From Burkholderiales bacterium (GTDB lineage: Bacteria > Pseudomonadota > Gammaproteobacteria > Burkholderiales > Casimicrobiaceae), in contig CAJPFI010000004.1 in the NCBI GenBank assembly GCA_905339295.1, positions 1 through 64,000 on the forward strand: 64,000 nucleotides of DNA. The letters are read 5' to 3'. Below the pieces are notes generated by a model, which had not been told where the DNA came from, did no database searches, and saw only the letters and a program-made list of their open reading frames with translations. Position numbers and translations under genes: made by a program. Shown here one piece after another: positions 27,818-41,002 of this stretch. Position 1 is the stretch's first letter, and every line of letters begins with the position of its first letter.

Positions 27818-29803
27818 TCACGCGCGCGCCGCCGCGAACACCGCGCCGGCGCGCTGCTTCACCGCGATCCGGTAGCGGCGGTCGGCGATCGCGAGGAAGC
27901 CGCCGAGCGCCATCAGCACGCAGCCGCCCCAGATCCAGTCGATGAATGGCTTCACGTAGATGCGCACGCCCCATGCGCCGGCGTGGCCGTCGGCCGTGAC
28001 CGGCTCGCCCAGCGAGACGTAGAGGTCGCCGGTGATCCGCGGGGAGATCGCCGCCTCGGTCATCGACTGTCCGCTCGCGGTGTACACGCGCTTCTCCGGA
28101 CGGAGGACCTCGCGCAGCGTGCCGTCGCGCCGCACCTCGACCGTCCCGACCAGCGCGCGATAGTTGGGACCGGGCCGCTCATCGATGCCCTTGAACGTGA
28201 AGGTCCAGCCGCCCACGTCGACACCCTGTCCCGGGTCGAGGCGCACGTCGCGCTCGACCTCGTAGCCCTTCACGAGCGTCACGCCGACGATGAACACCGC
28301 GATGCCGACGTGCGCGAGCAGCATGCCGTACCACGACGATGGGTTCGCGCGGAGCTTGCCCGCGAGCGTCGGTTGCGGCGAGCCGCGCAGGCGCTGGACG
28401 ACCGCCGTCACGGTCGCCCCGACGACCCACGTCGCGAGGAACATGCCCACCGCGACCCACGGCGACCAGCGTCCCATCGCGAACGGCAGCGCGACCGAGA
28501 GCAGGATCGCGAGAACGAGCGCCCATTTCAGGCGCGTCCACAGGTCGGCCACCTCCGCGCGCCGCCAGCTCGAGATCGGGCCGATGCCCATCAGGAACAC
28601 GAGCGGTGCCATCAGCGGGCCGAACACGGACTCGAAGTAGGGCGGGCCCACCGAGATCTTGCCGGCGTTGAGCGCGTCGAGGAACAGCGGGTAGAGCGTG
28701 CCGAGCAGCACGCTCGCCATCGCGACGACGAGCAGGATGTTGTTCGCGAGCAGCATCGACTCGCGCGACACCGGCGCGAAGGACGCGCCGCCGCCCACGG
28801 CGCCCGCGCGCGCGGCGTAGAGCGCGAGCGACCCGCCGATCACGATCACGAGGAACGCGAGCACGTAGACGCCGCGCGCCGGGTCGGTCGCGAACGCATG
28901 CACCGACGTGAGGACGCCGGAACGCACGAGGAACGTGCCGAGCAGCGAGAGGGAGAACGCCATGATCGCGAGCAGCACGGTCCAGCTCCTGAACGTGCCG
29001 CGCTTCTCGGTCACGGCGAGCGAGTGGATGAGCGCCGTGCCGACGAGCCAGGGCATGAACGACGCGTTCTCGACCGGGTCCCAGAACCACCAGCCTCCCC
29101 AGCCCAGCTCGTAGTACGCCCACCAGCTGCCGAGCGCGATGCCGACGGTCAGGAAGCACCATGCGACCGTCGTCCACGGCCGCGACCAGCGCGCCCAGGT
29201 CGCGTCGAGCCGGCCGCCGATGAGCGCCGCGATCGAGAACGCGAACGCGACCGCGAAGCCGACGTAGCCCATGTACAGGAGCGGCGGGTGCATCACCATC
29301 CCCGGGTCCTGCAGCAACGGGTTCAGGTCGCGCCCCTCGGGCGCCGGCGGCACGAGGCGCTCGAACGGGTTCGACGTGAACAGCAGGAACGACAGGAAGC
29401 CGATGGCGACCAGTCCCATCACCGCCAGCACGCGCGCGAGCATCGGCGCGGGCAGGTTGCGCGAGCGCAGCGCGACCGCGGCCGACCAGCCGGCGAGCAT
29501 CAGCGCCCACAGGAGCAGCGATCCCTCGTGCGATCCCCACGAGGCCGCGAGCTTGTACTGCGCGGGCAGCGCCGAGAACGAGTTCTGCGCGACGTTGAGG
29601 ACCGAGAAGTCGCTCCTGAGGAAGCTCGTCGCGAGGCAGCCGAACGCGATCGCGACGAGCGCGAACTGCGTGATCGCCGCCGGGCGCGCGAACGACATCA
29701 GCGCGGCGTCGCGGCGCGCGGCGCCGACCAGCGGCACAACGCCCTGCGCGGTCGCCACGAGGAGCGCGAGGACCAGCGCGAACTGGCCGAGTTCGGGAAT
29801 CAT
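27818..29803 (-). CDS. ccmF: Haem lyase CcmF
   Basis: Polytopic haem-attachment protein, 661 aa with about 15 membrane segments. The WWD haem-handling motif is GWGGWWFWDPVENASFMPW, and conserved histidines occur in HEGSLLLW and MVMHPPLLYMGYVG. It ends with a large periplasmic domain (VERDVRLDPGQ, KRVYTASGQSMTEAAI) and a final membrane helix. It lies between ccmG and ccmE as in most proteobacteria. Confidence 0.97.
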   Translation of the reverse strand: MIPELGQFALVLALLVATAQGVVPLVGAARRDAALMSFARPAAITQFALVAIAFGCLATSFLRSDFSVLNVAQNSFSALPAQYKLAASWGSHEGSLLLWALMLAGWSAAVALRSRNLPAPMLARVLAVMGLVAIGFLSFLLFTSNPFERLVPPAPEGRDLNPLLQDPGMVMHPPLLYMGYVGFAVAFAFSIAALIGGRLDATWARWSRPWTTVAWCFLTVGIALGSWWAYYELGWGGWWFWDPVENASFMPWLVGTALIHSLAVTEKRGTFRSWTVLLAIMAFSLSLLGTFLVRSGVLTSVHAFATDPARGVYVLAFLVIVIGGSLALYAARAGAVGGGASFAPVSRESMLLANNILLVVAMASVLLGTLYPLFLDALNAGKISVGPPYFESVFGPLMAPLVFLMGIGPISSWRRAEVADLWTRLKWALVLAILLSVALPFAMGRWSPWVAVGMFLATWVVGATVTAVVQRLRGSPQPTLAGKLRANPSSWYGMLLAHVGIAVFIVGVTLVKGYEVERDVRLDPGQGVDVGGWTFTFKGIDERPGPNYRALVGTVEVRRDGTLREVLRPEKRVYTASGQSMTEAAISPRITGDLYVSLGEPVTADGHAGAWGVRIYVKPFIDWIWGGCVLMALGGFLAIADRRYRIAVKQRAGAVFAAARA

Positions 29804-29822
29804 CGGGGTTTTCCTCCGCGCG

Positions 29823-30275
29823 TCAGTTGGCCGACGACTTCATCTGTCCGCCCTTGTGCGCCTGCTCGATCGCAGCGGCGGCCTCGGGCGGCATGTAGTT
29901 CTCGTCGTGCTTCGCCAGCACCTCGGTCGCCGTGAACACGCCGTCGGGGCCGAGCGAGCCCTGCGCGACCACGCCCTTGCCTTCCTTGAACAGGTCGGGC
30001 AGGAGTCCCGTGTAGCGGACCGGCACCTTCTGCGCGGTGTCGGTGACGACGAAGCTCATCGTGAGCGTTTCCCGCTCGCGCTTCAGGCTCCCGGCCTCGA
30101 CCATCCCGCCGATGCGGAACGAGCGGCCGACCGGCGCCTCGTTCGCCAGCACCTGCGACGGCGAGTAGAAGAACACGAGGTTCGACTGGAACGCGTTGAG
30201 CACGAGGCCGACCGCGACCGCGAGCGCGGCGAGCCCCGCGGCGATCCAGGCGAAGCGGCGGTGGCGGGCCTTCAT
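29823..30275 (-). CDS. ccmE: Haem chaperone CcmE
   Basis: Periplasmic haem carrier that binds haem covalently through a histidine. The 150-aa product has an N-terminal anchor and an OB-fold with the haem-binding KHDENY motif (His123, Tyr127). The terminal MKSSAN tail is short. It overlaps ccmD by 4 bp (ATGA). Confidence 0.97.
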
Positions 30276-30451
30276 CGGGCGGCTCCCGCGCGCAGCGGTT
30301 CGGCGTCGACCCCCGACGCCTGCGCATCGTCGAGCGCGCGGCGGCGCCGCGCGCGCAGCGCGACGAACTCGGCGGCGATCGCCACCGCGCACGCGCCGTA
30401 GGACATCCAGACATACCAGCCGTAGCCGCCCATCGACAGGAACTCGCCCAT
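30272..30451 (-). CDS. ccmD: Haem exporter protein CcmD
   Basis: Small single-pass membrane protein of 59 aa that joins the CcmABC haem-loading complex and releases holo-CcmE. It has the typical [16 protein letters not shown] followed by a hydrophobic stretch and a basic RARRRRAL segment. ATGA overlaps on both sides tie it to ccmC and ccmE. The longer frame containing it antisense to ccmC is a shadow. Confidence 0.92.
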
Positions 30452-31200
30452 CACGCCGCCCTCAGGTTCGTTTCCGGAAGCGCGGCGACCCACGCGGAAC
30501 CGCGCTCGCGCTCGAGGATGATCGCGCGGACGCGCCACAGCGCGGCCGCGATGCACCAGAACCACGCCGCGAACGACATCACCAGCATGCCGGCGAGCAT
30601 CAGGCTCGCCATCTTCGGCGCGGCCGTCAGGCTCACCGTGGCGCCCTGGTGCAGCGTGTTCCACCACTGCACGGAGAAGTAGATGATCGGCACGTTGACC
30701 GCGCCGACCAGCGCGAGCACCGCGCAGGCGCGGTCCGCGCGGCGCGGGTCGTCGATCGCGCCGCGCAGCGCGATCACGCCGAGATAGAGGAACAGCAGGA
30801 TCAGCGTCGAGGTCATCCGCGCGTCCCATGCCCAGTACGTTCCCCACGTCGGCCGGCCCCAGAACGCCCCGGTCCACAGCGCGAGCGCCGCCATCAGCGC
30901 GCCGGTCGGCGCGAGCGCCTGCGCCATCATCGCGGAGAGCCGTGCGTTGAACGCGAGCGCGAGCGCGCTCCAGAACGCCATCACGAGGTAGACGAACATC
31001 GCCATCCAGGCGGTCGGCACGTGGACGAAGATGATCCGGTAGGCCTCGCCCTGCGTCGCGTCGGTCGGCGCGAGCGCGAAGCCGATCCACAGGCCCGCCG
31101 CGGCGAAGATCGCCGCCAGCGCGCCGAAGGCCGGCGCGAGCCTGCCCGCGACCGGGTAGAACGTCGCCGGCGAAGCGTAGCGGTACCAGTTGATGGCCAT
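30451..31200 (-). CDS. ccmC: Haem exporter protein CcmC
   Basis: Six-helix membrane protein that loads haem onto CcmE. The 249-aa product carries the tryptophan-rich WWD-type motif [13 protein letters not shown] and conserved histidines in [11 protein letters not shown] and NTLHQGA. It starts two bases from the ccmB stop. Confidence 0.97.
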
Positions 31201-31202
31201 GG

Positions 31203-31913
31203 TCAGTCAAGCGCGATGCGAACCGCCGACGCCGCCGCGAACGGCGCGCCCAGCGCCGCCACGATCAGTCCCGCCCCCAGCAGCGACAGGTTCGCGTCCG
31301 CCCCGAGCCCGGCCCGCACCGCGTCGACCGCTCCCGCCCCGAAGATCAGCACGGGCACGTAGAGCGGCAGCACGAGCAGCGCCAGGAGCCCGCCGGCTCC
31401 GCGCACCCCCAGCGTCAGCGCGGCGCCGATCGCGCCCAGGAGCGAGAGGATCGGCGTGCCGAGCGCGAGTCCCGCGACCAGCACGGCGATCGCCTCGCCG
31501 TCGAGGCCGTACTGCAGCGCCGCCAGCGGCGCGAGCAGCACGACCGGAAGGCCCGTCGTCAGCCAATGCGCGAGTATCTTACCGGACACGATCGCCGGCA
31601 GCGGCCACGGCGACAGCGCCATCTGCTCGAGCGTGCCGTCCGCTTGATCGAGCGCAAACATTCGCGGCAGCGACAGCAGCGACGCGAGCAGCGCCGCCAC
31701 CCAAAGCACTCCCGGCCCCATGGTCATCAGCAGCGTGCGCTCGGGGGTCGTCGCGAGCGGGAAAAGGGTCACCACGATGGCATAGAACAGGAGCTGGACG
31801 GCGAGTTCCGAGCGCGTCCGGACGGCGAGGCGCAGGTCGCGCGCGAGCGCCCAGCCGAGGCCCGCGAGGACGCCTCCCGGCTCGCCGTCGTCGCCTTCGC
31901 GTCGACCGGCCAT
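31203..31913 (-). CDS. ccmB: Haem exporter protein CcmB
   Basis: Permease of the CcmAB ABC complex, 236 aa with about six membrane helices. Recognisable stretches are LAVRTRSELAVQLLFYAIVV, LLASLLSLPRMFALDQADGTLEQ and LPLYVPVLIFGAGAV. It starts 5 bp after ccmA. The product is about 15 residues longer than usual at the N-terminus (MAGRREGDDGEP); a later start within the gene is possible. Confidence 0.93.
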   Translation of the reverse strand: MAGRREGDDGEPGGVLAGLGWALARDLRLAVRTRSELAVQLLFYAIVVTLFPLATTPERTLLMTMGPGVLWVAALLASLLSLPRMFALDQADGTLEQMALSPWPLPAIVSGKILAHWLTTGLPVVLLAPLAALQYGLDGEAIAVLVAGLALGTPILSLLGAIGAALTLGVRGAGGLLALLVLPLYVPVLIFGAGAVDAVRAGLGADANLSLLGAGLIVAALGAPFAAASAVRIALD

Positions 31914-31918
31914 CGGCG

Positions 31919-32533
31919 TCAGTCCAGCGACAGGCCGGAGACGCGGCCGGCCGGCAGCGCGAGCGGTGCGTGCGTCGCCGCGACGGCGATGCCGCCGCCC
32001 TCGAGGTGGCCGGCGACGAGCTCGCCGAGCAGCGCGGCGCCCGCGGCATCGAGCGCGGTGACCGGCTCGTCGAGGATCCAGATCCGGCGGCGCGATAACG
32101 CGAGCCGCGCGAGCCCGACGCGGCGGCGCTGCCCCTGCGACAGCACGCGCGCGGGCAGCGCCTTGCGCGAGCCGAGCGCGACGCGGTCGAGCGCGGCGTC
32201 GAGTTCCGCGCCGGACGCCCGGCCACCCGACAGCGCGACCAGCGACGCCAGGTTCTCGCGCGCCGAGAACTCGTCCTTGAGCGCCAGGGCATGCCCGGCG
32301 AACGTGACCGACGAGCGCAGCGCCGGCGAGAACGGCGCGACGCGCGCGCCGTCGACGCGGATCTCGCCCGCGTCGGGCATCGACAGCCCGGCGAGCATGC
32401 GCAGGAGCGTCGTCTTGCCGCGTCCGTTCGCGCCGGTTACGACGAGCGCGCGACCCGCATCGACGGCGAGGTCGAGACCGGTGAAAAGGCGCGCGGTACC
32501 GCGTCGCGCGGCGAGGTCGAGCGCTTCGAGCAT
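31919..32533 (-). CDS. ccmA: Haem exporter ATP-binding protein CcmA
   Basis: ATPase of the CcmABCD complex that drives release of holo-CcmE. The 204 aa have Walker A GANGRGKTT (residues 34-42), signature LSQGQRRRV and Walker B IWILDEPVTALD. First gene of the - strand ccmABCDEFGH operon; promoter elements would lie in the 170-bp region shared with the divergent IPTL-CTERM gene, where an AT-richer patch (ATTATAGC, near 32604) is visible. Confidence 0.95.
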   Translation of the reverse strand: MLEALDLAARRGTARLFTGLDLAVDAGRALVVTGANGRGKTTLLRMLAGLSMPDAGEIRVDGARVAPFSPALRSSVTFAGHALALKDEFSARENLASLVALSGGRASGAELDAALDRVALGSRKALPARVLSQGQRRRVGLARLALSRRRIWILDEPVTALDAAGAALLGELVAGHLEGGGIAVAATHAPLALPAGRVSGLSLD

Positions 32534-32702: not shown

Positions 32703-34475
32703 ATGACGTCCTTCCTCCGCCGCCTGCGCCCGACTTCGGGTTCCCGCCATCCCGGTGCCGCGTCGTGGCTCGCCGTCCTGGGCGTCGCCCTGGGAGTCGC
32801 GCTTTGCGCGCCCGCCGCGGCGCAGTCGAATCTCAACGCCAGCATGCTCTTCGCGCCCACGGCGATCGCGTCGGGCAAGCCGACGCTGCTGCGCGTCCGG
32901 CTGGGCAACTCGAACAGCGACGCGCAGATCGCCGGGATCGCGTACGACGTGCCGTTCCCTGCCGGGATGCGACTGGTCGGGACGCTCGACGCGTCCCAGT
33001 GCGGCGGCACGATCACGCCCGTCGACGGCGGCTACCGGTTCCGCGACGGCTCGCTCGGCCTGGGGTCCGCCTGCCTGGTCGACACGGAGGTGACGGTCGA
33101 TTCGGACGTCAACGCCATCGTGACGCTGACGGTCGGGCCGATCACCTCGCGCAACGGCGGATCGGTCGGCTCGATCTCGGCGGCGCTGACGGTGCAGGGC
33201 GGCATCGCGCCGGCGATCACGTCGCTGCCGCTGCCCACGCCAGGGTTCCTCGGCCTCGACTATGCGCACCAGGTCACGGTGACCGGCACCGCGCCGGTCG
33301 TCGTCACCGCCGAGGGCCTGCCTCCGGGGCTCGTCTACGACCCCGCGACGCGCAGGATCTCCGGCAGGCCGACGCTCGTGGGCTTCTACACGGTGACGCT
33401 GCGTGCCATCAACGGCTTCGCGCCGCCCGCCGCGCAGGTGTCGATCGTCGAGGTCCGCAATCCGGCGCTGCAGATCATCACGCCGCCGCCGCTCGTTCCC
33501 GACCGCCTCCTCGTCGGCGCGCCGATCGCGCTCCTGATCGAGGCGACGGGCGGGCTCAAGCCCTACATCTTCGAGATCGTCGGCGGCGCGCTGCCGCCGG
33601 GACTCACGCTCGCCACGGACGGCCGCATCGTCGGATCGCCGACGACGGCCGGCGTCTATCCGTTCACCGTGCGCGTGCGCGACGTGCTGTTCCAGCAGGA
33701 CGCGCGGACCTTCGAGCTCGTCGTCGGCGGCATCGCGACGACGCTCGCCGTCGGTCTTGCGCCGAACCCCGCCGTCGCCGGGCAGGAGGTCGTGCTGAAC
33801 GCGACGGTCGTCGCGGAGTCGGGCGCGCCGCCCGCGGGCACGCTCGAGGCGTGGGTCGCCGGGCCCGGCACGCGCTGCCCCGCGCCGTTCGAGGGCGGCG
33901 CGGACCCGGTGACGACGTACTCGCGGACCGCGGCCGTGGCGGGAGGCGTCGCGCAGATCGCGTTCGCGGACCTCGCGATCGGACATTTCCGCGTCTGCGC
34001 GCGCTTCGCCGGCACGCCGTTGCACCTGCCTTCGACGTTCGGGCCGGTCGACCTGTTCGTGATCAAGGGAATCCTGCTGCAGGCGCCGAAGCTGACGCTG
34101 AAGGCCCCGTCGCGCGCGAATCCGGGCGCGACCGTGCAGGGCAGCGTCGTCGTCGAGGCGGAAGGATCGCCGGCGACACCAGGCGGCACGGTGCGCGTTC
34201 GCGCCGGCGCACGCGACGTGGGCGAGATCCCGATCGTGAACGGCCGGGCGCCGTTCTCGGTGGCGGCGCCGGTCGAGCCGGGCGTGATGACGCTGACGGC
34301 GAGCTATGCCGGCGATCCCGCGTTCGCGCCCGCCACGTCGGCGCCGGTGTACGTGACCGTGGCGAAGGCCAACGGGGACGGCGAGCCGATCCCGACGCTC
34401 GGCGAGGCCGCGTCAGCGTTGCTCGCGCTGCTGCTCGCGGCGCTCGCCGCCGCCCGCCTGCGGCGCCGCGGCTGA
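32703..34475 (+). CDS. Exported Ig-like domain protein with IPTL-CTERM sorting signal
   Basis: A 590-aa surface or periplasmic protein. A signal peptide (LAVLGVALGVALCAPAAAQ) is followed by an N-terminal beta-rich region. Two putative-Ig repeats follow, each with the LPPGLxxxxxxxxIxGxPT signature (residues ~205-225 and ~296-325). Two further Ig-like segments end VYVTVAKA. The C-terminus is GEPIPTLGEAASALLALLLA plus AARLRRRG: an IPTL motif, a hydrophobic helix and a basic tail, the IPTL-CTERM architecture handled by exosortase-type enzymes. The usual WG after IPTL is absent. An ATG at 32661, behind GAGG, is an alternative start. Confidence 0.75.
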   Translation: MTSFLRRLRPTSGSRHPGAASWLAVLGVALGVALCAPAAAQSNLNASMLFAPTAIASGKPTLLRVRLGNSNSDAQIAGIAYDVPFPAGMRLVGTLDASQCGGTITPVDGGYRFRDGSLGLGSACLVDTEVTVDSDVNAIVTLTVGPITSRNGGSVGSISAALTVQGGIAPAITSLPLPTPGFLGLDYAHQVTVTGTAPVVVTAEGLPPGLVYDPATRRISGRPTLVGFYTVTLRAINGFAPPAAQVSIVEVRNPALQIITPPPLVPDRLLVGAPIALLIEATGGLKPYIFEIVGGALPPGLTLATDGRIVGSPTTAGVYPFTVRVRDVLFQQDARTFELVVGGIATTLAVGLAPNPAVAGQEVVLNATVVAESGAPPAGTLEAWVAGPGTRCPAPFEGGADPVTTYSRTAAVAGGVAQIAFADLAIGHFRVCARFAGTPLHLPSTFGPVDLFVIKGILLQAPKLTLKAPSRANPGATVQGSVVVEAEGSPATPGGTVRVRAGARDVGEIPIVNGRAPFSVAAPVEPGVMTLTASYAGDPAFAPATSAPVYVTVAKANGDGEPIPTLGEAASALLALLLAALAAARLRRRG

Positions 34476-34496: not shown

Positions 34497-36716
34497 GTGA
34501 CGCGACCGTTCGCCGGACGGCTCGCGCGCACGCTGGCCGGCGCGCCGCGCTGGGCGGTCGGACTGCTGATCGTCGCGCTGGCGGCGTTCGTGCCGCTCGT
34601 CGGCGTGGAGCGCGTGCCGGTGATCGCGAAGCTCGAGGCGATGGCCTACGATGCGCGGCTCCTGCTCTCGCAGCGCCGCACGGCCGACCCGCAGGTCGCG
34701 ATCGTCGACATCGACGAGGCGAGCCTCGACCGCGTCGGGCGCTGGCCCTGGCCGCGCGACACGCTCGCGCGCCTCACGGCGACGCTGTTCGACCGCCATC
34801 AGGCGCGGCTCGTCGCGTTCGACGTCCTGTTCCCCGAGCCCGACCTGTCCGGCAACGCCGCCGCGCTCGACGAGCTCGCGCGCCGCGGGTTGCGCGACAC
34901 GCCGGAGGCGCGCGCCGCGCTCGCCGAGCTGAAGTCGCGCGCCGACCACGACGGCCAGTTCGCGACCGCGCTGTCGGGGCGCGCCACCGTGCTCGCGTTC
35001 GGATTCACCGCGAGCGCGCAGGCGTCCGGGATGCTGCCCGCGCCGGCGTTCACGCAATCCGACCTTCGCGCGCGCGCGATCCCGATCGCGCCGGAGTCGG
35101 GCTACACGGCGAACCTGCCGGCGCTGCAGCGTGCGGCGGCGACCGGCGGCCACCTCGACCCGACGTTCGACCCGGACGGCGTCGTGCGGCGCGTGCCGAT
35201 GGTCAAGCGCTTCCGGGACGGCTTCTATCCGGCGCTGTCGCTCGCGACGGTGGCCGTGGCGGTCGAGGCGAAGGCGATCCGCCCGGTGTTCGACGCGAAC
35301 GGCGACCTCGAGGCGATCGACGCCGGGGGGCTGCGCGTGCCGGTCGCGCACGACGGCACCGCGCTGGTTCCGTACCGCGGTCCGTCCGGCACCTACCGGT
35401 CGTTCCCCGCGGCCGACATCCTCGACGGCCGGATCGCCCCCGACGCGTTCGCGGGCGCGATCGTGCTGATCGGCACCTCGGCCAAGGGCCTGCAGGACCT
35501 GCGCTCGGCGCCGTTCGCGCCGGACTTTCCCGGCGTCGAGATCCACGCGAGCCTCGTGTCCGGGATGCTCGACGGCGACATGAAGAACGTGCCGGCGGGC
35601 GCGCGCGAGATCGCGGCCCTCCTCGTCCTCGTGGCGGGAATCGTGGCGGTGCTCGTGCTGCCGTGGCGCCGTCCGGTCGCGAGCCTCGCCGGCATCGTCG
35701 TGCTCGCCGCGGCGGTCGTCGGGATCGCGATCTACTTCTGGTGGCGGCACGACGCCGTGGTCGCGATCGCGCCCGCGCTCGTGATGCTGCTCGCGCTCCT
35801 CGTCTGGAACCTGCTTTCGGGATTCCTGCGCGAGGCGCAGGAGACCCGCACGCTCGCCGACATGTTCGGCGAGTACGTCCCGCCCGAGCGCGTCGCGCAG
35901 ATGCGCGCGAGCGGCGAGCGCTTCTCGATGGAGGGCGAGAGCCGCGAGATGAGCGTGCTGTTCTCCGACGTGCGCGACTTCACCGCGCTGTCCGAGCGCC
36001 TGCCGCCGCGCGAGCTGTCGGCGATGCTGAACGACTACCTGTCGGCGATGACCTCGGCGATCCACGCGTCGCACGGCACCGTCGACAAGTACGTCGGCGA
36101 CGCGATCATGGCGTTCTGGGGCGCGCCGCTCGCCAATCCGGCGCACGCCGCGAGCGCCGTGCGGGCGGCGCTCGCGATGCAGCGCGCGATCCCCGCCATG
36201 CGCGACGCGTATGCCGCGCGCGGGTGGCCGCCGCTGGCGATGGGCGTGGGCATCAACTCCGGCATGATGAACGTCGGCGACATGGGTTCGCGCTTCCGCA
36301 AGGCCTACACGGTGCTGGGCGACGCGGTGAACCTCGCCTCGCGCCTCGAGGGCCTCACGAAGGTCTACGGCGTGGGCATCCTGTGCGGCGAGGCCACGCG
36401 CGCGGCGGTGGACGGCATCGTGTGGCGCGAGATCGACCGCGTGCGAGTCAAGGGCCGCCAGCAGGCGCTGGCGATCTTCGAGCCGCTCGCCGAGTCGGGC
36501 GACGCGGCGGCGCAGGCGCGCGCGGCGCGCTTCGCGGAGGCGCTCGGCGCCTACCGCGCGCGGCGCTTCGAGGACGCGCGCCGCGCGTTCGACGCGATCG
36601 CGGAGGACGCGTCGGACCGCGCGCTCGCGTCGGTGTTTCGCGTGCGCTGCATCGCGTACTGCGCCGCACCGCCCGCGACCGACTGGGACGGCGCGTGGAG
36701 CTTCGTCGAGAAGTGA
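34497..36716 (+). CDS. CHASE2-domain class III adenylate cyclase
   Basis: A 739-aa membrane receptor cyclase. After a first helix (residues ~20-36), residues ~45-365 form a periplasmic CHASE2 sensor (PQVAIVDIDEASLDRVGRWP, IVLIGTSAKGLQDLRSAPF). Three helices follow at ~370-440. The catalytic domain starts near residue 480: MSVLFSDVRDFTALSERLPP holds the first metal Asp and DKYVGDAIMAFWGAP the second, with VNLASRLEGLTKVYG after. Both metal aspartates are present, so cAMP synthesis is likely. The GTG start is the best available. It converges on a FecR/outer-membrane pair that often accompanies CHASE2 cyclases. Confidence 0.9.
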   Translation: MTRPFAGRLARTLAGAPRWAVGLLIVALAAFVPLVGVERVPVIAKLEAMAYDARLLLSQRRTADPQVAIVDIDEASLDRVGRWPWPRDTLARLTATLFDRHQARLVAFDVLFPEPDLSGNAAALDELARRGLRDTPEARAALAELKSRADHDGQFATALSGRATVLAFGFTASAQASGMLPAPAFTQSDLRARAIPIAPESGYTANLPALQRAAATGGHLDPTFDPDGVVRRVPMVKRFRDGFYPALSLATVAVAVEAKAIRPVFDANGDLEAIDAGGLRVPVAHDGTALVPYRGPSGTYRSFPAADILDGRIAPDAFAGAIVLIGTSAKGLQDLRSAPFAPDFPGVEIHASLVSGMLDGDMKNVPAGAREIAALLVLVAGIVAVLVLPWRRPVASLAGIVVLAAAVVGIAIYFWWRHDAVVAIAPALVMLLALLVWNLLSGFLREAQETRTLADMFGEYVPPERVAQMRASGERFSMEGESREMSVLFSDVRDFTALSERLPPRELSAMLNDYLSAMTSAIHASHGTVDKYVGDAIMAFWGAPLANPAHAASAVRAALAMQRAIPAMRDAYAARGWPPLAMGVGINSGMMNVGDMGSRFRKAYTVLGDAVNLASRLEGLTKVYGVGILCGEATRAAVDGIVWREIDRVRVKGRQQALAIFEPLAESGDAAAQARAARFAEALGAYRARRFEDARRAFDAIAEDASDRALASVFRVRCIAYCAAPPATDWDGAWSFVEK

Positions 36717-36833
36717 TCGATGCGTCGCGGGGCCGGACGCCGTTGCTCCCGGGTCCGGCCGTGCGCGTCGGTGCGGAGGAGCGGCTCTGCCCGCGTGCCG
36801 TCGCCGGGGAAAGCGGGTCTTCCGGCGCCAGGT

Positions 36834-38360
36834 TCAGCAGCTGCCCGGCGCCGCGCAGCGCCGATAGCCCGCGACGCCTTCGATGACGCCGGTGCGCGTG
36901 TTGAAGTAGTAGTCGAGGCCGAGCCCCGCGCCCCCCGGCCCGGCGAGGAATCCCGCGAAGTTGCCGGCGACGAGCGGCTGGCACGCCGCGCCGGCGCACG
37001 TCGCCGTCGCGCCGGTGCCGCCGGTCGAGAACAGCGGGCCCACGAGGCCCGCGGTGCCGCTCAGCGAATAGGTCGCGTCGGTGAAGCCGACCTGCAGGTT
37101 GTTGAGGCTCACCTGCGCGATCGTGAAGTTCACCGCGACGCGGCCGCCCGACAGGAGCGTTCCGACCGCGCCGCTCGCCGAGTCGGTCGGCCGCGTGCCG
37201 CCGACCAGCGCGTACTCGACGATGCCGGCGGTCGGCAGGTCGTTCGCGACGACGCCGTAGACGTAGTGCAGGTTGCCGCCGTCGTTGTGGATGACGTCGC
37301 CGTTCGGCAGCTGCTGCGCGATGGACGAGCCCGCGCCGGCCCAGCGGCCCCAGTTGAGGCTCGCGTTCTGCGCCGGATGGTTGCCGGTGTCGACGATGCC
37401 CGCGGTCCCGATCGACGCGACGAGCGTTCCGGTGTCGACCGCGACGAGCCGGCCCAGCGGGTCGAGCTGCGCGTGGTCGGCGCCCATGTTGAACGCGAAC
37501 TCGAGCGTCGCCTCGTCGGAGCCTATGATGCCGATGACCGGCGTCGCGACGGGGTTGCCGTGCGCGATGTCGTCGGTGGACTGGAACGGGTCCTTGAGGA
37601 AGCGGTCGAGCGTGCGCAGCTCGTCGGTCGGGAAGTCGGGCACCTTGCGGAAGCCGAGCTCCGTCGAGTCGGACGTCGCGGCGGCCTGCTTGCCGATGAG
37701 CCGCGTCGCGAGGAACGAGGGCGGAGCGAGCAGGCGCGACGGCATGCCGCCGTCGGGCACCACGAAGAACTCGCGCGCGCCGAAGATCTCCGACCTGCCG
37801 GGCGCGATCGCGATCACGCGGCCGTCGTAGATGCCGCCATACAGGCCCGGCACCGCCGGCGGGTCGTTGTCCGATTCGCGGCACTCGTCCTTGCCGCAGA
37901 CCTCGAGCTGGAAGTGCGTGCCGCGGATCCCGATCGTCGCCTGCGTCGTGAGGACCTGGTAGGTGTCGCGGTTCACCTGGCCGATCTGGCCGGTCAGCGT
38001 GCGGAAACCGCCGCGCACGAGCCGGAACACTGCGCGCTCGCTCCCGTCGGTGCGCCCCGCGAAGTTGTAGGACTCGATGCGGAACTCGGTGCCCGGCTTG
38101 ATCGCGACGAGCGCCTCGTCGGAGAAGCGGATCTGCGCGTGGCCGTCCGCGCCGGTGACGATGGCGTCGCCGACGCCGACGTTCGCGCCGGCGGCGAGCC
38201 GGACGCGCTCGGCGCCGCGCACGGCGGCGACGTCGCCGACGGCGAGCACGACGCGGCCCGCCTGCGCGAGCGCGGCGGCGGACGCGAGCGTCGCGGCGAG
38301 GGCGATCAGCCATGCGGCGACGGCGCTCGCGCGGGAACGGTGTCGGCGGTCGGCGGTCAT
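36834..38360 (-). CDS. FecR-domain periplasmic protein
   Basis: A 508-aa exported protein (signal peptide ending ALAQA). Residues ~50-150 form a FecR domain: VGDAIVTGADGHAQIRFSDE, IKPGTEFRIESYNF and VRGGFRTLTGQI. A CGKDEC dicysteine follows. The C-terminal half is beta-rich and glycine/threonine-rich. Such FecR proteins lack a sigma-factor partner here and instead occur with CHASE2 cyclases and beta-barrel proteins. It starts 11 bp from the stop of the upstream outer-membrane gene, so the two form an operon. Confidence 0.8.
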   Translation of the reverse strand: MTADRRHRSRASAVAAWLIALAATLASAAALAQAGRVVLAVGDVAAVRGAERVRLAAGANVGVGDAIVTGADGHAQIRFSDEALVAIKPGTEFRIESYNFAGRTDGSERAVFRLVRGGFRTLTGQIGQVNRDTYQVLTTQATIGIRGTHFQLEVCGKDECRESDNDPPAVPGLYGGIYDGRVIAIAPGRSEIFGAREFFVVPDGGMPSRLLAPPSFLATRLIGKQAAATSDSTELGFRKVPDFPTDELRTLDRFLKDPFQSTDDIAHGNPVATPVIGIIGSDEATLEFAFNMGADHAQLDPLGRLVAVDTGTLVASIGTAGIVDTGNHPAQNASLNWGRWAGAGSSIAQQLPNGDVIHNDGGNLHYVYGVVANDLPTAGIVEYALVGGTRPTDSASGAVGTLLSGGRVAVNFTIAQVSLNNLQVGFTDATYSLSGTAGLVGPLFSTGGTGATATCAGAACQPLVAGNFAGFLAGPGGAGLGLDYYFNTRTGVIEGVAGYRRCAAPGSC

Positions 38361-38371
38361 GGGGCCCCCAC

Positions 38372-39697
38372 TCACTTGAAGTCGTAGCGCAGCTTGCCGG
38401 CGACGACGTAACGGTCGTATTCGTACAGCGCGAGGTTCGAGTCGTTGCGGTAGTACTGCGCCTCGACGCGGGCGGACAGCTCGCGCGTGATGAAGTACAG
38501 CGCGCCGACGCTGGCGCTGTAGTTGTCGTCGCGCCGCGTGAACCCGAGCAGCGGGATCGGCCCCATGTAGGTGCTGCGCTGGAACGCGAACGCGGCGTTG
38601 AGCGCCCACTGCGGCGCCGGCGACACCGTGACGTCCGCCGAGCCGCCGTAGACGTCGCGGCCGAGGTCGTCGCGGTCGCGCCGGTTCTCCTCGCGGGCGC
38701 CCACGGCCGACAGGTTGAGCACCGGCTGCCACGTCGTGAGCCACGCCTTCCGCAGCGTGACGCCGAGCGCGTAGAAGTCGCTGTCGCGCACCGCGTTCTC
38801 GCCCGGGTAGCCGATGCGCGCGTACTGCGGCGCGACGCTCAGCGTCGCCAGGTCCGACACGGCGTGGCGCCATTCGAGCGTGACGCCGTCCGACCGGCGG
38901 TAGCGGTCGCCGCCGACCGAGAGTTCGCCGTGCGAGTAGGTGCCGAAGAACGTGTGGCGGCCGGTCTGCCAGCTCGCGCCCAGCGTCGCCGCGCCCTGCG
39001 CGATGTCGAAGTCGCTCTCGCTCGCGTTGAACTGGCCGTTCGCCACCAGCCCGCCATACGCGGCGACGCCCGGCGCCACCGGGTGGTTGACCTGCACGCT
39101 GCCCGCGAGCCATCCGAAGCCGGCGCGCTTTTCGACGCCGAAGTCGACGACCGTCACCGGCCCGAGCACCGGCAGCGCGATGTCCGCCTGCGCGACGCCG
39201 GCGTTGACGTTGCTGTCGTAGCCGCCGCCAGCCTCGACGTAGCCTCGCACCCGAGTGCGGTACTGCGCCTCGCGCGCGGAGAGCGCCTCGAGGTAGCGGT
39301 CGATGCCGGCGCGCACCGGCACGGGCGGCTCGCCCGCGCGCACCGACTCGAATTCGCGGCGGGCGGACACGTCGTCGCCCGCGTAGAAGTACGCGCGGGC
39401 GAGCTCGAGCCGCCCGCGCAGGTCGTCCGGCGTGCGCAGCACGTAGCGCTCGATCGAGAGCACGCCTTCGCCGGTGCGGCCGACGTCGACCGCCGCGACG
39501 CCGCACCACAGGTCGGCCTGCGGCACCGCGTCGCGATCGATCTGCGCGCACAGCGGATAGGCCTCGTCGGAGCGCCCGATGTCGACGAGGCGGCGGACCT
39601 CGTCGACCGCGCTTCCCTGCGCGTGGGCCGCGCCCGCGAATGTCCATGCCGCGAAGGCGGCGGCGAACGTGCAGCGAGTGGTTCGGAGTATCGCCAT
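38372..39697 (-). CDS. TPR / beta-barrel outer-membrane protein (Slam/DUF560-like)
   Basis: A 441-aa protein with signal peptide (AGAAHAQ). Residues ~25-125 are helical TPR-like repeats (RGRLELARAYFYAGDDVSARREF). The rest is alternating amphipathic strands ending with the aromatic tail YVVAGKLRYDF, the hallmark of an outer-membrane barrel. The layout resembles surface lipoprotein assembly modulators (DUF560), but no cargo lipoprotein is adjacent. Operonic with the FecR gene. Confidence 0.72.
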   Translation of the reverse strand: MAILRTTRCTFAAAFAAWTFAGAAHAQGSAVDEVRRLVDIGRSDEAYPLCAQIDRDAVPQADLWCGVAAVDVGRTGEGVLSIERYVLRTPDDLRGRLELARAYFYAGDDVSARREFESVRAGEPPVPVRAGIDRYLEALSAREAQYRTRVRGYVEAGGGYDSNVNAGVAQADIALPVLGPVTVVDFGVEKRAGFGWLAGSVQVNHPVAPGVAAYGGLVANGQFNASESDFDIAQGAATLGASWQTGRHTFFGTYSHGELSVGGDRYRRSDGVTLEWRHAVSDLATLSVAPQYARIGYPGENAVRDSDFYALGVTLRKAWLTTWQPVLNLSAVGAREENRRDRDDLGRDVYGGSADVTVSPAPQWALNAAFAFQRSTYMGPIPLLGFTRRDDNYSASVGALYFITRELSARVEAQYYRNDSNLALYEYDRYVVAGKLRYDFK

Positions 39698-39760: not shown

Positions 39761-41002
39761 TCAGGGCACGACGCGGTCGATCGTGATGCTGAGGCCGGTC
39801 GCGCCGGGCGCCACGACGCCGCTCTGGCCGGAAAGGTCGCCCGACGACGGCGTCGCGCCGCCGGTGACCGAGATGCGCGCCTCGACGACGACCTCGCGCG
39901 CGGCGGACAGCGTCGCACCCGGCGCCATCGCCATCGAGTCGTCGAGCTCGAACGAGAGCGGCAGGTCGCGCGCGCTCGCCCGCACGATCGCGAGCGGCAT
40001 GCGCGGACCCTGCGCGGCGCGCGCGTACACGAACAGCGTCGCGTCGGGCGAGACGCGCGACGCGAGCGCGGGCGCGATCGCGACGCGTCCGGCGATGCGG
40101 CTCGACGCGGGCGCCGTCGCCGGCGGCGCGGGGGCGGCGCCCGCGCTCGCGGACGGCGCACCCGGCGCTCCGCCTTCGAGCTGCGCGATCGTCGCCTCGA
40201 TGCCCTTCGCGTCCTCGCCGCCGGGCGGGACGACCGCGAGCAGCGCCCGCCAGTAGCGCACCGCCGTCCTGTCGTCGTTGCGCTCCATCGCCGCGGACGC
40301 CGCGAGCGCGAGCGCCTTCGGATGCGCGGGATCGGCGGCGAGCGCCTGGCCGATGATCTCGGTCGGCCTGCCGGCGAGCTTGCGTCCCTGCGCCATGGCG
40401 AGCGCGTCCGCCCAGTCGGCGAGCACGTCGGCATTGCCGGGCAGCAGCCGCGCCGCGGCCGCATACGCGTCGGCGGATTCCGGGAAGCGCTCGAGCGCCG
40501 ACCACGAGCGACCGAGCAGCAGCCAGCCCTGCGGATCGGACGGGTTCTCCCTCATGCGCTGGGCGAGGCGCTCGACCATCGAGACGATTTCGGTGTCGCT
40601 CATGCGCGGGTGCGTGGCGCCGGCCTCGAGCGCCTGCGGATTGCCGACCGCGAGGTAGGCGACGAGCGCCGTCGCCGGCACGATCGCGACCATCGCGATC
40701 GCCGCGATCCACGGCCACCGGCTCGCGGACGCCGACGCGGGGGCCGGCGTCGCCGACAGCTCGGCGCCCAGCCGCGCGACGATCTCGGTCTCGGCGGCGT
40801 CGCGCTCCTCCGCGCCGATCGCGCCCGACGCGAACTCGGCGTCGATCTGGCGCTTCTGGTCGCGGTAGACCGCGGCCGACGCGTCGACGTCCTCCGGCCG
40901 CTCGCGTTGCCCGCGCGAGCGCAGCAGCGGGACGACGAGCGCCGCGAGCGTCGCGAGGACAAGGGCGAGCGCGATCGCCCAGAAGGTCGTGCCGGTCGAC
41001 AT
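39761..41002 (-). CDS. ccmI: Cytochrome c maturation protein CcmI (CycH)
   Basis: Apocytochrome chaperone of the haem ligation complex, 413 aa. Two membrane helices (residues ~7-27 and ~95-118) flank a cytoplasmic loop with YRDQKRQIDAEFASGAI. A periplasmic TPR region follows (DPQGWLLLGRSWSALERFPE, ALAADPAHPKALALAASAAM). The C-terminal domain (GRVAIAPALASRVSPDATLF, MPLAIVRASARDLPLSFELD) is typical of CycH. It is separated from ccmH by about 12.5 kb, although on the same strand. Confidence 0.92.
   Translation of the reverse strand: MSTGTTFWAIALALVLATLAALVVPLLRSRGQRERPEDVDASAAVYRDQKRQIDAEFASGAIGAEERDAAETEIVARLGAELSATPAPASASASRWPWIAAIAMVAIVPATALVAYLAVGNPQALEAGATHPRMSDTEIVSMVERLAQRMRENPSDPQGWLLLGRSWSALERFPESADAYAAAARLLPGNADVLADWADALAMAQGRKLAGRPTEIIGQALAADPAHPKALALAASAAMERNDDRTAVRYWRALLAVVPPGGEDAKGIEATIAQLEGGAPGAPSASAGAAPAPPATAPASSRIAGRVAIAPALASRVSPDATLFVYARAAQGPRMPLAIVRASARDLPLSFELDDSMAMAPGATLSAAREVVVEARISVTGGATPSSGDLSGQSGVVAPGATGLSITIDRVVP

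Follow-up and report, generated by a model that had tools for sequence, protein, structure and literature searches.

Gene organization of the locus

The DNA analysed here, referred to as the window, is a 64,000-nucleotide stretch of a Burkholderiales bacterium (Casimicrobiaceae; assembly GCA_905339295.1, contig CAJPFI010000004.1, here C4, of a 4.03 Mb genome). Positions 34497-39697 carry a CHASE2-domain adenylate cyclase gene on the forward strand, tail-to-tail with a gene pair on the reverse strand that encodes a TPR-barrel protein and a FecR-domain protein. The stop codons of the cyclase and FecR genes lie 117 bp apart, and 11 bp separate the barrel stop codon from the FecR ATG. The same convergent triad occurs in a sister genome (L135), with 72% identity for the barrel, 69% for the FecR protein and 67% for the cyclase. 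An earlier reading of this interval from the letters alone (the original prediction) had described a convergent CHASE2 cyclase and FecR/barrel set; the genes proved real, their coordinates exact, and the domain calls hold. The features that concern us are as follows.

34497-36716, forward strand: CHASE2-adenylate cyclase, 739 amino acids, GTG start (PF05226, E 2e-55; Guanylate_cyc PF00211, E 7e-20)
Cyclase residues 13-44, forward strand: transmembrane (TM)-like stretch (hydropathy)
Cyclase residues 35-380, forward strand: CHASE2 domain, periplasmic by family (PF05226)
Cyclase residues 365-446, forward strand: three TM-like stretches (hydropathy)
Cyclase residues 482-656, forward strand: class III cyclase domain (PF00211)
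36834-38360, reverse strand: FecR-domain protein (P0002), 508 amino acids (PF04773, E 2e-10)
37899-38168, reverse strand: FecR domain, residues 65-154 (PF04773)
37536-37730, reverse strand: linker of low confidence, probably disordered, residues ~211-275 (predicted local distance difference test score, pLDDT, <50 at 220-275)
36837-37535, reverse strand: TbpB-like C-terminal beta domain, residues ~276-508 (VIA-align, Foldseek)
38372-39697, reverse strand: TPR-barrel protein (P0003), 441 amino acids (BBP2_2, PF10082, E 2e-6, above cut-off; AlphaFold model)
39266-39619, reverse strand: TPR-like helical domain, barrel residues 27-144 (AlphaFold model)

The cyclase combines the three parts of a CHASE2 receptor adenylate cyclase: the CHASE2 domain, TM-like stretches and a class III cyclase domain. 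Its closest solved sequences are adenylate cyclases (the phytochrome-cyclase chimera 6fht and CyaB, 3r5g), and it carries D491, K531, D535, T605, N612 and R616 at the positions where class III adenylate cyclases have their catalytic residues. Judged by these sequence features, it should be an inner-membrane sensor enzyme, predicted to make cyclic AMP (cAMP). The genome holds 12 places with a cyclic-nucleotide (cNMP)-binding domain, which are possible cAMP readers. A genome search for the class II cAMP phosphodiesterase PF02112 gave no match, other phosphodiesterase families lying outside that search, and no phosphodiesterase is among the genes seen beside the cyclase in the window.

A FecR-domain protein with features of a secreted cargo

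The FecR protein opens with what appears by eye to be an ordinary signal peptide, having no lipobox cysteine and no cysteine in its first 40 residues. This start runs straight into the FecR region, with no cytoplasmic anti-sigma domain before a TM helix. In its AlphaFold model (mean pLDDT 74) a disordered linker joins the FecR region to a beta domain at the C-terminus. The N-terminal part aligned in VIA-align with the PupR cell-surface signalling domain 6ovk (Z 15.2, 135 residues aligned, root-mean-square deviation (rmsd) 3.0) and, with its PF04773 match, shows the FecR/cell-surface signalling fold. VIA-align also matched the FecR part, over 74 of 76 residues, to 5ix9 (Z 11.4; titled "Cell surface anchoring domain"), the retained end of a giant adhesin. 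The LapA-type retention module NF033682 matched six of 18 relatives (best E 0.00017; the L095 protein scored 31.5 bits against a cut-off of 50) and left the window protein unmatched.

Sigma70_r4_2, the sole sigma family searched, occurs at 17 places in the genome and at none on contig C4, which agrees with the earlier remark that no sigma factor is present. Assignment of the FecR protein to the FecR/FecI type did not survive: given its signal peptide, the lack of a cytoplasmic anti-sigma part and of Sigma70_r4_2 on the contig, and its TbpB-like C-terminus, we rejected a classical anti-sigma factor.

That the C-terminus might be of TbpB type, like the cargo of Slam translocons, was predicted from the end of the sequence before the structure search. 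In VIA-align this domain then aligned with TbpB 5kkx (Z 14.1, 192 residues aligned, rmsd 3.7), with NHBA (Z 13.6, 149 of 152 residues, rmsd 2.5) and HpuA (Z 13.0), both of them cargo of the type 11 secretion system (T11SS), and with HphA and fHbp (Z 11.8 each). Foldseek agrees, the C-terminal part finding TbpB, LbpB, NHBA, HphA and fHbp in the PDB. TbpB, LbpB, fHbp and hemophilins are T11SS cargo (PMC12282271; this and the other papers cited below are drawn on in excerpt). A PDB sequence search with the FecR-protein alignment returned nothing up to E 1, and a plasmid search with the FecR protein gave no match.

A T11SS-like barrel

The AlphaFold model of the barrel protein (mean pLDDT 88) shows helices up to residue 144 and then 14 long strands at 149-440, that is, an N-terminal TPR domain followed by a 14-stranded barrel, the layout of DUF560/T11SS proteins (PMC8406197). 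TPR_19 was detected in 27 of 29 members of the barrel family, and SlipAM (PF04575) in 19 of 29, each at E up to 0.1. A genome-wide SlipAM search had no hits, its controls also being silent. The top Foldseek match was the cellulose exporter BcsC, itself a TPR-barrel. The closest solved barrels by VIA-align were the porins CymA (Z 21.6) and OmpG (Z 20.8), which we take to be 14-stranded. No solved Slam barrel stood among the 50 matches listed by Foldseek and VIA-align, an absence that carries no weight either way. A PDB sequence search with the barrel alignment yielded TPR proteins, the TonB receptor FhuE, a few others and nothing else. Identification with a named PEP-CTERM barrel was rejected, TIGR03016 and EpsL scoring far below their cut-offs.

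On a Novosphingobium plasmid, a protein distantly related to the barrel (26% identity, E 4e-12) carries a Slam annotation, matches SlipAM (2e-26) and TPR_Slam (1e-11), and adjoins a TbpB_B_D (PF01298) protein. A hidden Markov model (HMM) of the FecR-protein C-terminus matched that neighbour at 9.5e-8 after iteration and at 1.9e-4 before, in a small search set consisting of the reading frames of 22 loci. Both the predicted fold and this HMM match to a PF01298 protein give the barrel a neighbour that, like T11SS cargo, ends in a TbpB-like domain. On these models the FecR-barrel pair looks like a translocon and its cargo rather than an anti-sigma system, a translocon-like nature that is missed in the original prediction.

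Association of the three families across genomes

The barrel and the FecR protein are regular neighbours. The barrel was found in 70 of 200 genomes, and FecR lay within 1.5 kb of it at no fewer than 72 of 79 places, 68 of them downstream on the same strand; these figures use 79 of 98 barrel rows, a second fragment in G059 and 18 rows weaker than E 2e-12 being dropped, and 145 listed FecR rows, those omitted apparently being further rows of proteins already listed. FecR is likewise present in 76 of 80 named barrel loci.

CHASE2 and FecR domains are also associated. Two of each were found in the whole window genome, and they form two pairs. Across 100 genomes of the order, CHASE2 occurs in at least 70 and FecR in at least 65, with at least 30 CHASE2-FecR pairs within 3 kb, compared with 0.78 expected; the count is built on 150 listed places per domain, and the expectation assumes uniform placement and ignores kinship. 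The 30 listed pairs lie on the same strand in 23 cases and on opposite strands in seven. Genomes with an opposite-strand pair within 3 kb include G070, G046, G023, G022 and G056. At the second pair of the window genome (L002, L134; contig C5, CHASE2 at 103102-104136), STAS, metallo-beta-lactamase-fold and CHASE2 genes share a strand and are convergent with OmpA-family and FecR genes.

Orthologs of the cyclase itself number at least 87, in at least 86 of 200 genomes (the first 87 listed rows; G139 and G091 are partial). Nine of the 87 have a barrel within 6 kb among the matches listed, compared with approximately 0.35 expected when every genome is taken as 3.7 Mb and kinship is ignored. Both genes were present in 49 genomes, only the cyclase in 37, only the barrel in 12 and neither in 102, again among the matches listed and with kinship and genome size ignored. 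In a quick tree of the barrel (111 rows after filtering on length and stops; L179 dropped, G094 absent), possession of a cyclase neighbour needs five changes, at least four of them forced by starred branches; the adjacency of cyclase and barrel has been gained or lost several times.

Together with the CHASE2 receptors found beside the barrel in nine of 20 regions outside the order (below), these statistics rule out a lack of association among the families, and the earlier description of the combination as recurrent stands.

Neighbourhoods within and outside the order

Several relatives embed the genes in longer rows, whose families were named from single representatives. In G014 and G080 (L095, L096) the row comprises a CHASE2 Ser/Thr kinase, a PP2C phosphatase, an FHA protein, a CHASE2 cyclase, a class II cAMP phosphodiesterase, the barrel and FecR, joined in G014 by a GAF-T2SSE ATPase; it has the appearance of a compact signalling island. 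At L102, L104, L105, L106 and L133 there is a very similar row that closes with a GAF-HD-GYP protein and lacks barrel and FecR. Cyclase, barrel and FecR stand consecutively on one strand, the other members of the row being absent, in G124 and G182 (L097, L098), and cyclase and barrel/FecR are convergent, as in the window, in G115 (L101). Four near relatives of the barrel-FecR pair (L107, L108, L111, L112) adjoin a common set of unrelated genes, which at L108 includes by Pfam an aminotransferase, a tetrahydrodipicolinate succinyltransferase-like protein, an M20 peptidase and others.

The TbpB-like C-terminal domain was found in 57 of the 76 named loci with FecR. Each of the seven loci fetched from the same order in which the pair adjoins a complete or partial cyclase carries it (L095-L101; at L097 in another frame), and fetched regions that have it carry one to four copies. 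Tandem copies in single FecR proteins were seen at L108 (three) and L120 (four). At L097, L190 and L198 the FecR domain and the TbpB-like copies lie in two overlapping frames, by frameshift, sequencing error or a split gene.

A barrel profile search of 200 genomes of the phylum gave 21 positives at E up to 1e-15, the window genome included. FecR adjoins the barrel in 17 of the 20 genomes outside the order, on the same strand in 14 and on the opposite strand at L253, L262 and L263. Nine of these 20 barrel regions hold a CHASE2 receptor, which follows barrel and FecR on the same strand; the L231 region spans only 3 kb, and the count excludes a weak match to the cyclase model at L262 (41.8 bits). 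Pfam scans of eight of the nine receptors, that of L251 being left out for its length, identified two cyclases and six hybrid histidine kinases with receiver and Hpt domains. FecR proteins found outside the order mostly show no TbpB-like domain, though that of L249 does. Long Pro/Gly-rich or acidic low-complexity tails, with no TbpB-like domain, were noted in FecR proteins beside the barrel at L252, L254-L260 and L267.

Flanking genes and regulatory signals

Upstream of the cyclase lies one further gene of the block:

32703-34475, forward strand: Ig-domain surface protein with an IPTL-CTERM sorting signal, start codon uncertain (Big_3_5, He_PIG, IPTL-CTERM, TIGR04174)

It ends 21 bp upstream of the cyclase gene on the same strand, and the two are probably co-transcribed. 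The block of cyclase, FecR, barrel and Ig genes splits ccmI (TIGR03142) from the other ccm genes, recognised by eye (27818-32533 and 39761-40996 of the window). In L135 the gene order is kept, including ccmI, malic enzyme and the Ig gene before the cyclase, these flanks also being recognised by eye. Scanning for promoters and terminators turned up no terminator and one promoter-like match, a weak one within the cyclase gene.

Comparison with known systems

The original prediction had called the combination uncharacterised, which needs correction: in Campylobacterota, genes for a CHASE2 cyclase, a phosphodiesterase, a protein with a FecR domain and a TPR protein have been described as a cluster and proposed to form a single pathway (PMC9239204, mBio 2022). 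The window differs from that cluster in its convergent genes and in a genome free of PF02112 matches; the phosphodiesterase is found beside the cyclase in the relative L095 and was not seen there in the window. The excerpted text on the Campylobacterota cluster does not mention a secretion-like pair.

A functional parallel is found in Sinorhizobium (S.) meliloti, where a plant protein is reported to be sensed through the outer-membrane barrel NsrA, which feeds the CHASE2 cyclases CyaD1, CyaD2 and CyaK and through them Clr (PMC13001267). Both systems have an outer-membrane beta-barrel with CHASE2 cyclases, and a FecR gene, smc02177, lies near cyaD1 (SMc02176) and clr (SMc02175). That gene is activated ex planta via cyaD1D2K and clr, and its nodule expression is essentially clr-independent (PMC5498481). 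Unlike the role we propose for the window protein, the S. meliloti FecR gene is thus a cAMP target and is not needed for perception. A barrel acting upstream of CHASE2 thus has precedent, and we have seen none for a FecR protein in that position.

Three further systems share parts of the arrangement. As in T11SS/Slam systems with TbpB-family cargo (PMC8406197, PMC12282271), a protein with TPR domain and 14-stranded barrel stands beside a signal-peptide protein with a C-terminal TbpB-like domain. FecA-FecR-FecI signalling shares the FecR/PupR-type fold of the N-terminal part, but in the window no Sigma70_r4_2 match occurs on the contig, the anti-sigma part is absent and a 14-stranded TPR barrel replaces the TonB receptor. 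The BiofilmReg operon of Burkholderia contaminans, which combines a LysM-FecR protein with a CHASE2 histidine kinase (PMC5192318), likewise places a FecR-domain envelope protein beside a CHASE2 receptor; it has LysM rather than a barrel and cargo-like domain, and a kinase rather than a cyclase. We found no paper joining FecR to type 11 secretion, FecR going unmentioned in the main text, supplements aside, of the T11SS literature checked. As far as these searches go, what is new is the translocon-cargo nature of the pair, the fusion of FecR with a TbpB-like domain, and the spread of the barrel-FecR-CHASE2 order with differing outputs.

Discussion

The gene content, the predicted folds, the pairing of barrel and FecR, and the enrichment of CHASE2 beside that pair in Proteobacteria lead us to propose a trans-envelope sensing module, in which a T11SS/Slam-like barrel and its FecR partner signal the state of the cell surface to a CHASE2 cyclase; we regard the chances of this proposal as evenly balanced. 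The barrel would be a T11SS/Slam-like outer-membrane translocon. The signal peptide would take the FecR protein across the inner membrane, and the TbpB-like C-terminal domain would be handed to the barrel and displayed on, or released from, the cell surface. The FecR domain, on its long flexible linker, would remain periplasmic at least part of the time and there meet the CHASE2 sensor of the cyclase, such that occupancy or release of the surface part is converted into cAMP. We infer that export runs through this barrel, that the FecR domain is retained and touches CHASE2, and that the signal travels outside-in. At the inner membrane the cyclase most likely serves as reader of the barrel-FecR pair, to which it would be coupled in that direction. 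Of the outer-membrane-to-cAMP chain originally envisaged, the action of a barrel on CHASE2 cyclases has its precedent in NsrA; the output is not always cAMP, as six of the eight scanned receptors outside the order are hybrid histidine kinases, and the direction may not be outside-in, smc02177 being switched on through cyaD1D2K and clr and unnecessary for perception.

A number of observations weigh against the proposed module, the strongest being that SMc02177 is dispensable for signal perception in S. meliloti (PMC5498481). Unlike known T11SS/Slam systems, the window has a cargo candidate with a FecR N-terminus and a barrel that scores 17.2 bits with SlipAM, under the curated cut-off of 22, and we therefore call it T11SS-like and do not file it as a Slam/DUF560 member. 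The families listed for the 29-member barrel family do not include PF24575 (TPR_Slam); PF01298 does not match the window FecR protein and is absent from the families listed for 18 FecR proteins. Searches for the TbpB-like domain came up empty at 19 of the 76 named loci, some of which are truncated at contig ends; L157 and L179, which make up two of the three named cyclase-bearing loci, gave no sign of it, and neither did the nine CHASE2 loci outside the order, where seven of eight FecR proteins inspected have Pro/Gly-rich or acidic tails instead. The empty genome search for PF02112 is a further point, although L095 has this phosphodiesterase beside its cyclase. Finally, 78 of the 87 listed cyclase orthologs have no listed barrel within 6 kb, 77 of the 80 named barrel loci have no relative of the window cyclase in the DNA examined, and the barrels nearest to that of the window in the tree, L135 excepted, have no such cyclase beside them; from the first two counts it follows that cyclase and barrel each occur without the other nearby.

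The 78 cyclase orthologs with no listed barrel within 6 kb would be expected if a stand-alone secretion unit and a stand-alone sensor had come to adjoin by chance in this lineage without a shared task, as would the unrelated gene set beside the pair's near relatives L107, L108, L111 and L112. We consider such a coincidence decidedly unlikely, since the adjacency exceeds chance (nine compared with about 0.35), has been gained or lost several times and is kept in L135, and since some CHASE2 receptor accompanies nine of the 20 barrel regions outside the order. Unlikely, too, is a reversed flow of information, whereby the CHASE2 cyclase senses on its own and cAMP, via a Crp-like regulator, switches on the barrel-FecR pair as a secreted or surface product rather than a sensor. 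The status of smc02177 as a cAMP target in S. meliloti (PMC5498481) fits this arrangement, as do the 12 cNMP-binding-domain places in the genome and a convergent layout that would allow separate regulation. It is harder to reconcile with the occurrence in other classes of barrel, FecR and CHASE2 on one strand in that order, histidine kinase receptors included, and with the absence of E. coli-type CRP sites near the genes: the window holds two matches with up to two mismatches, both distant and fewer than in shuffles (9.5 expected), though the host's own site may differ.

The barrel might instead be a porin or a polymer exporter of BcsC/PelB type, secreting nothing of the pair, with the FecR protein a fully periplasmic adaptor on its TPR domain. 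The structural matches to BcsC, CymA and OmpG are compatible with this, and so is the scarcity of TbpB-like domains in FecR proteins outside the order, L249 apart; the TbpB-like C-terminus in 57 of 76 named loci, a hallmark of Slam cargo with no obvious periplasmic role, makes it very unlikely in our estimation.

A more specific form of the sensing module may be entertained tentatively, although we think it somewhat improbable: a new class of trans-envelope receptor in which a T11SS-like barrel permanently holds its partner, the FecR domain being folded as a periplasmic plug and the tail or TbpB-like domain threaded to the surface. When the surface part is pulled, bound or lost, the plug would signal this to interchangeable inner-membrane CHASE2 receptors, an adenylate cyclase here and a hybrid histidine kinase elsewhere. 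If so, this would be the secretion-barrel counterpart of FecA-FecR for TonB receptors and of retained LapA for type 1 secretion.

In 2016 the signal sensed by CHASE2 domains was still described as unknown (PMC5192318); a plant protein sensed through NsrA has since been reported for S. meliloti (PMC13001267). If a translocon-cargo pair is a general upstream partner of CHASE2 receptors, their signal would become testable and FecR domains would gain a sigma-independent role. The sensing module, if true, would add signalling to the roles of type 11 secretion, alongside nutrient capture and adhesion, and the recurrent combination described here may represent an undescribed route by which events at the cell surface are reported to the cell interior.

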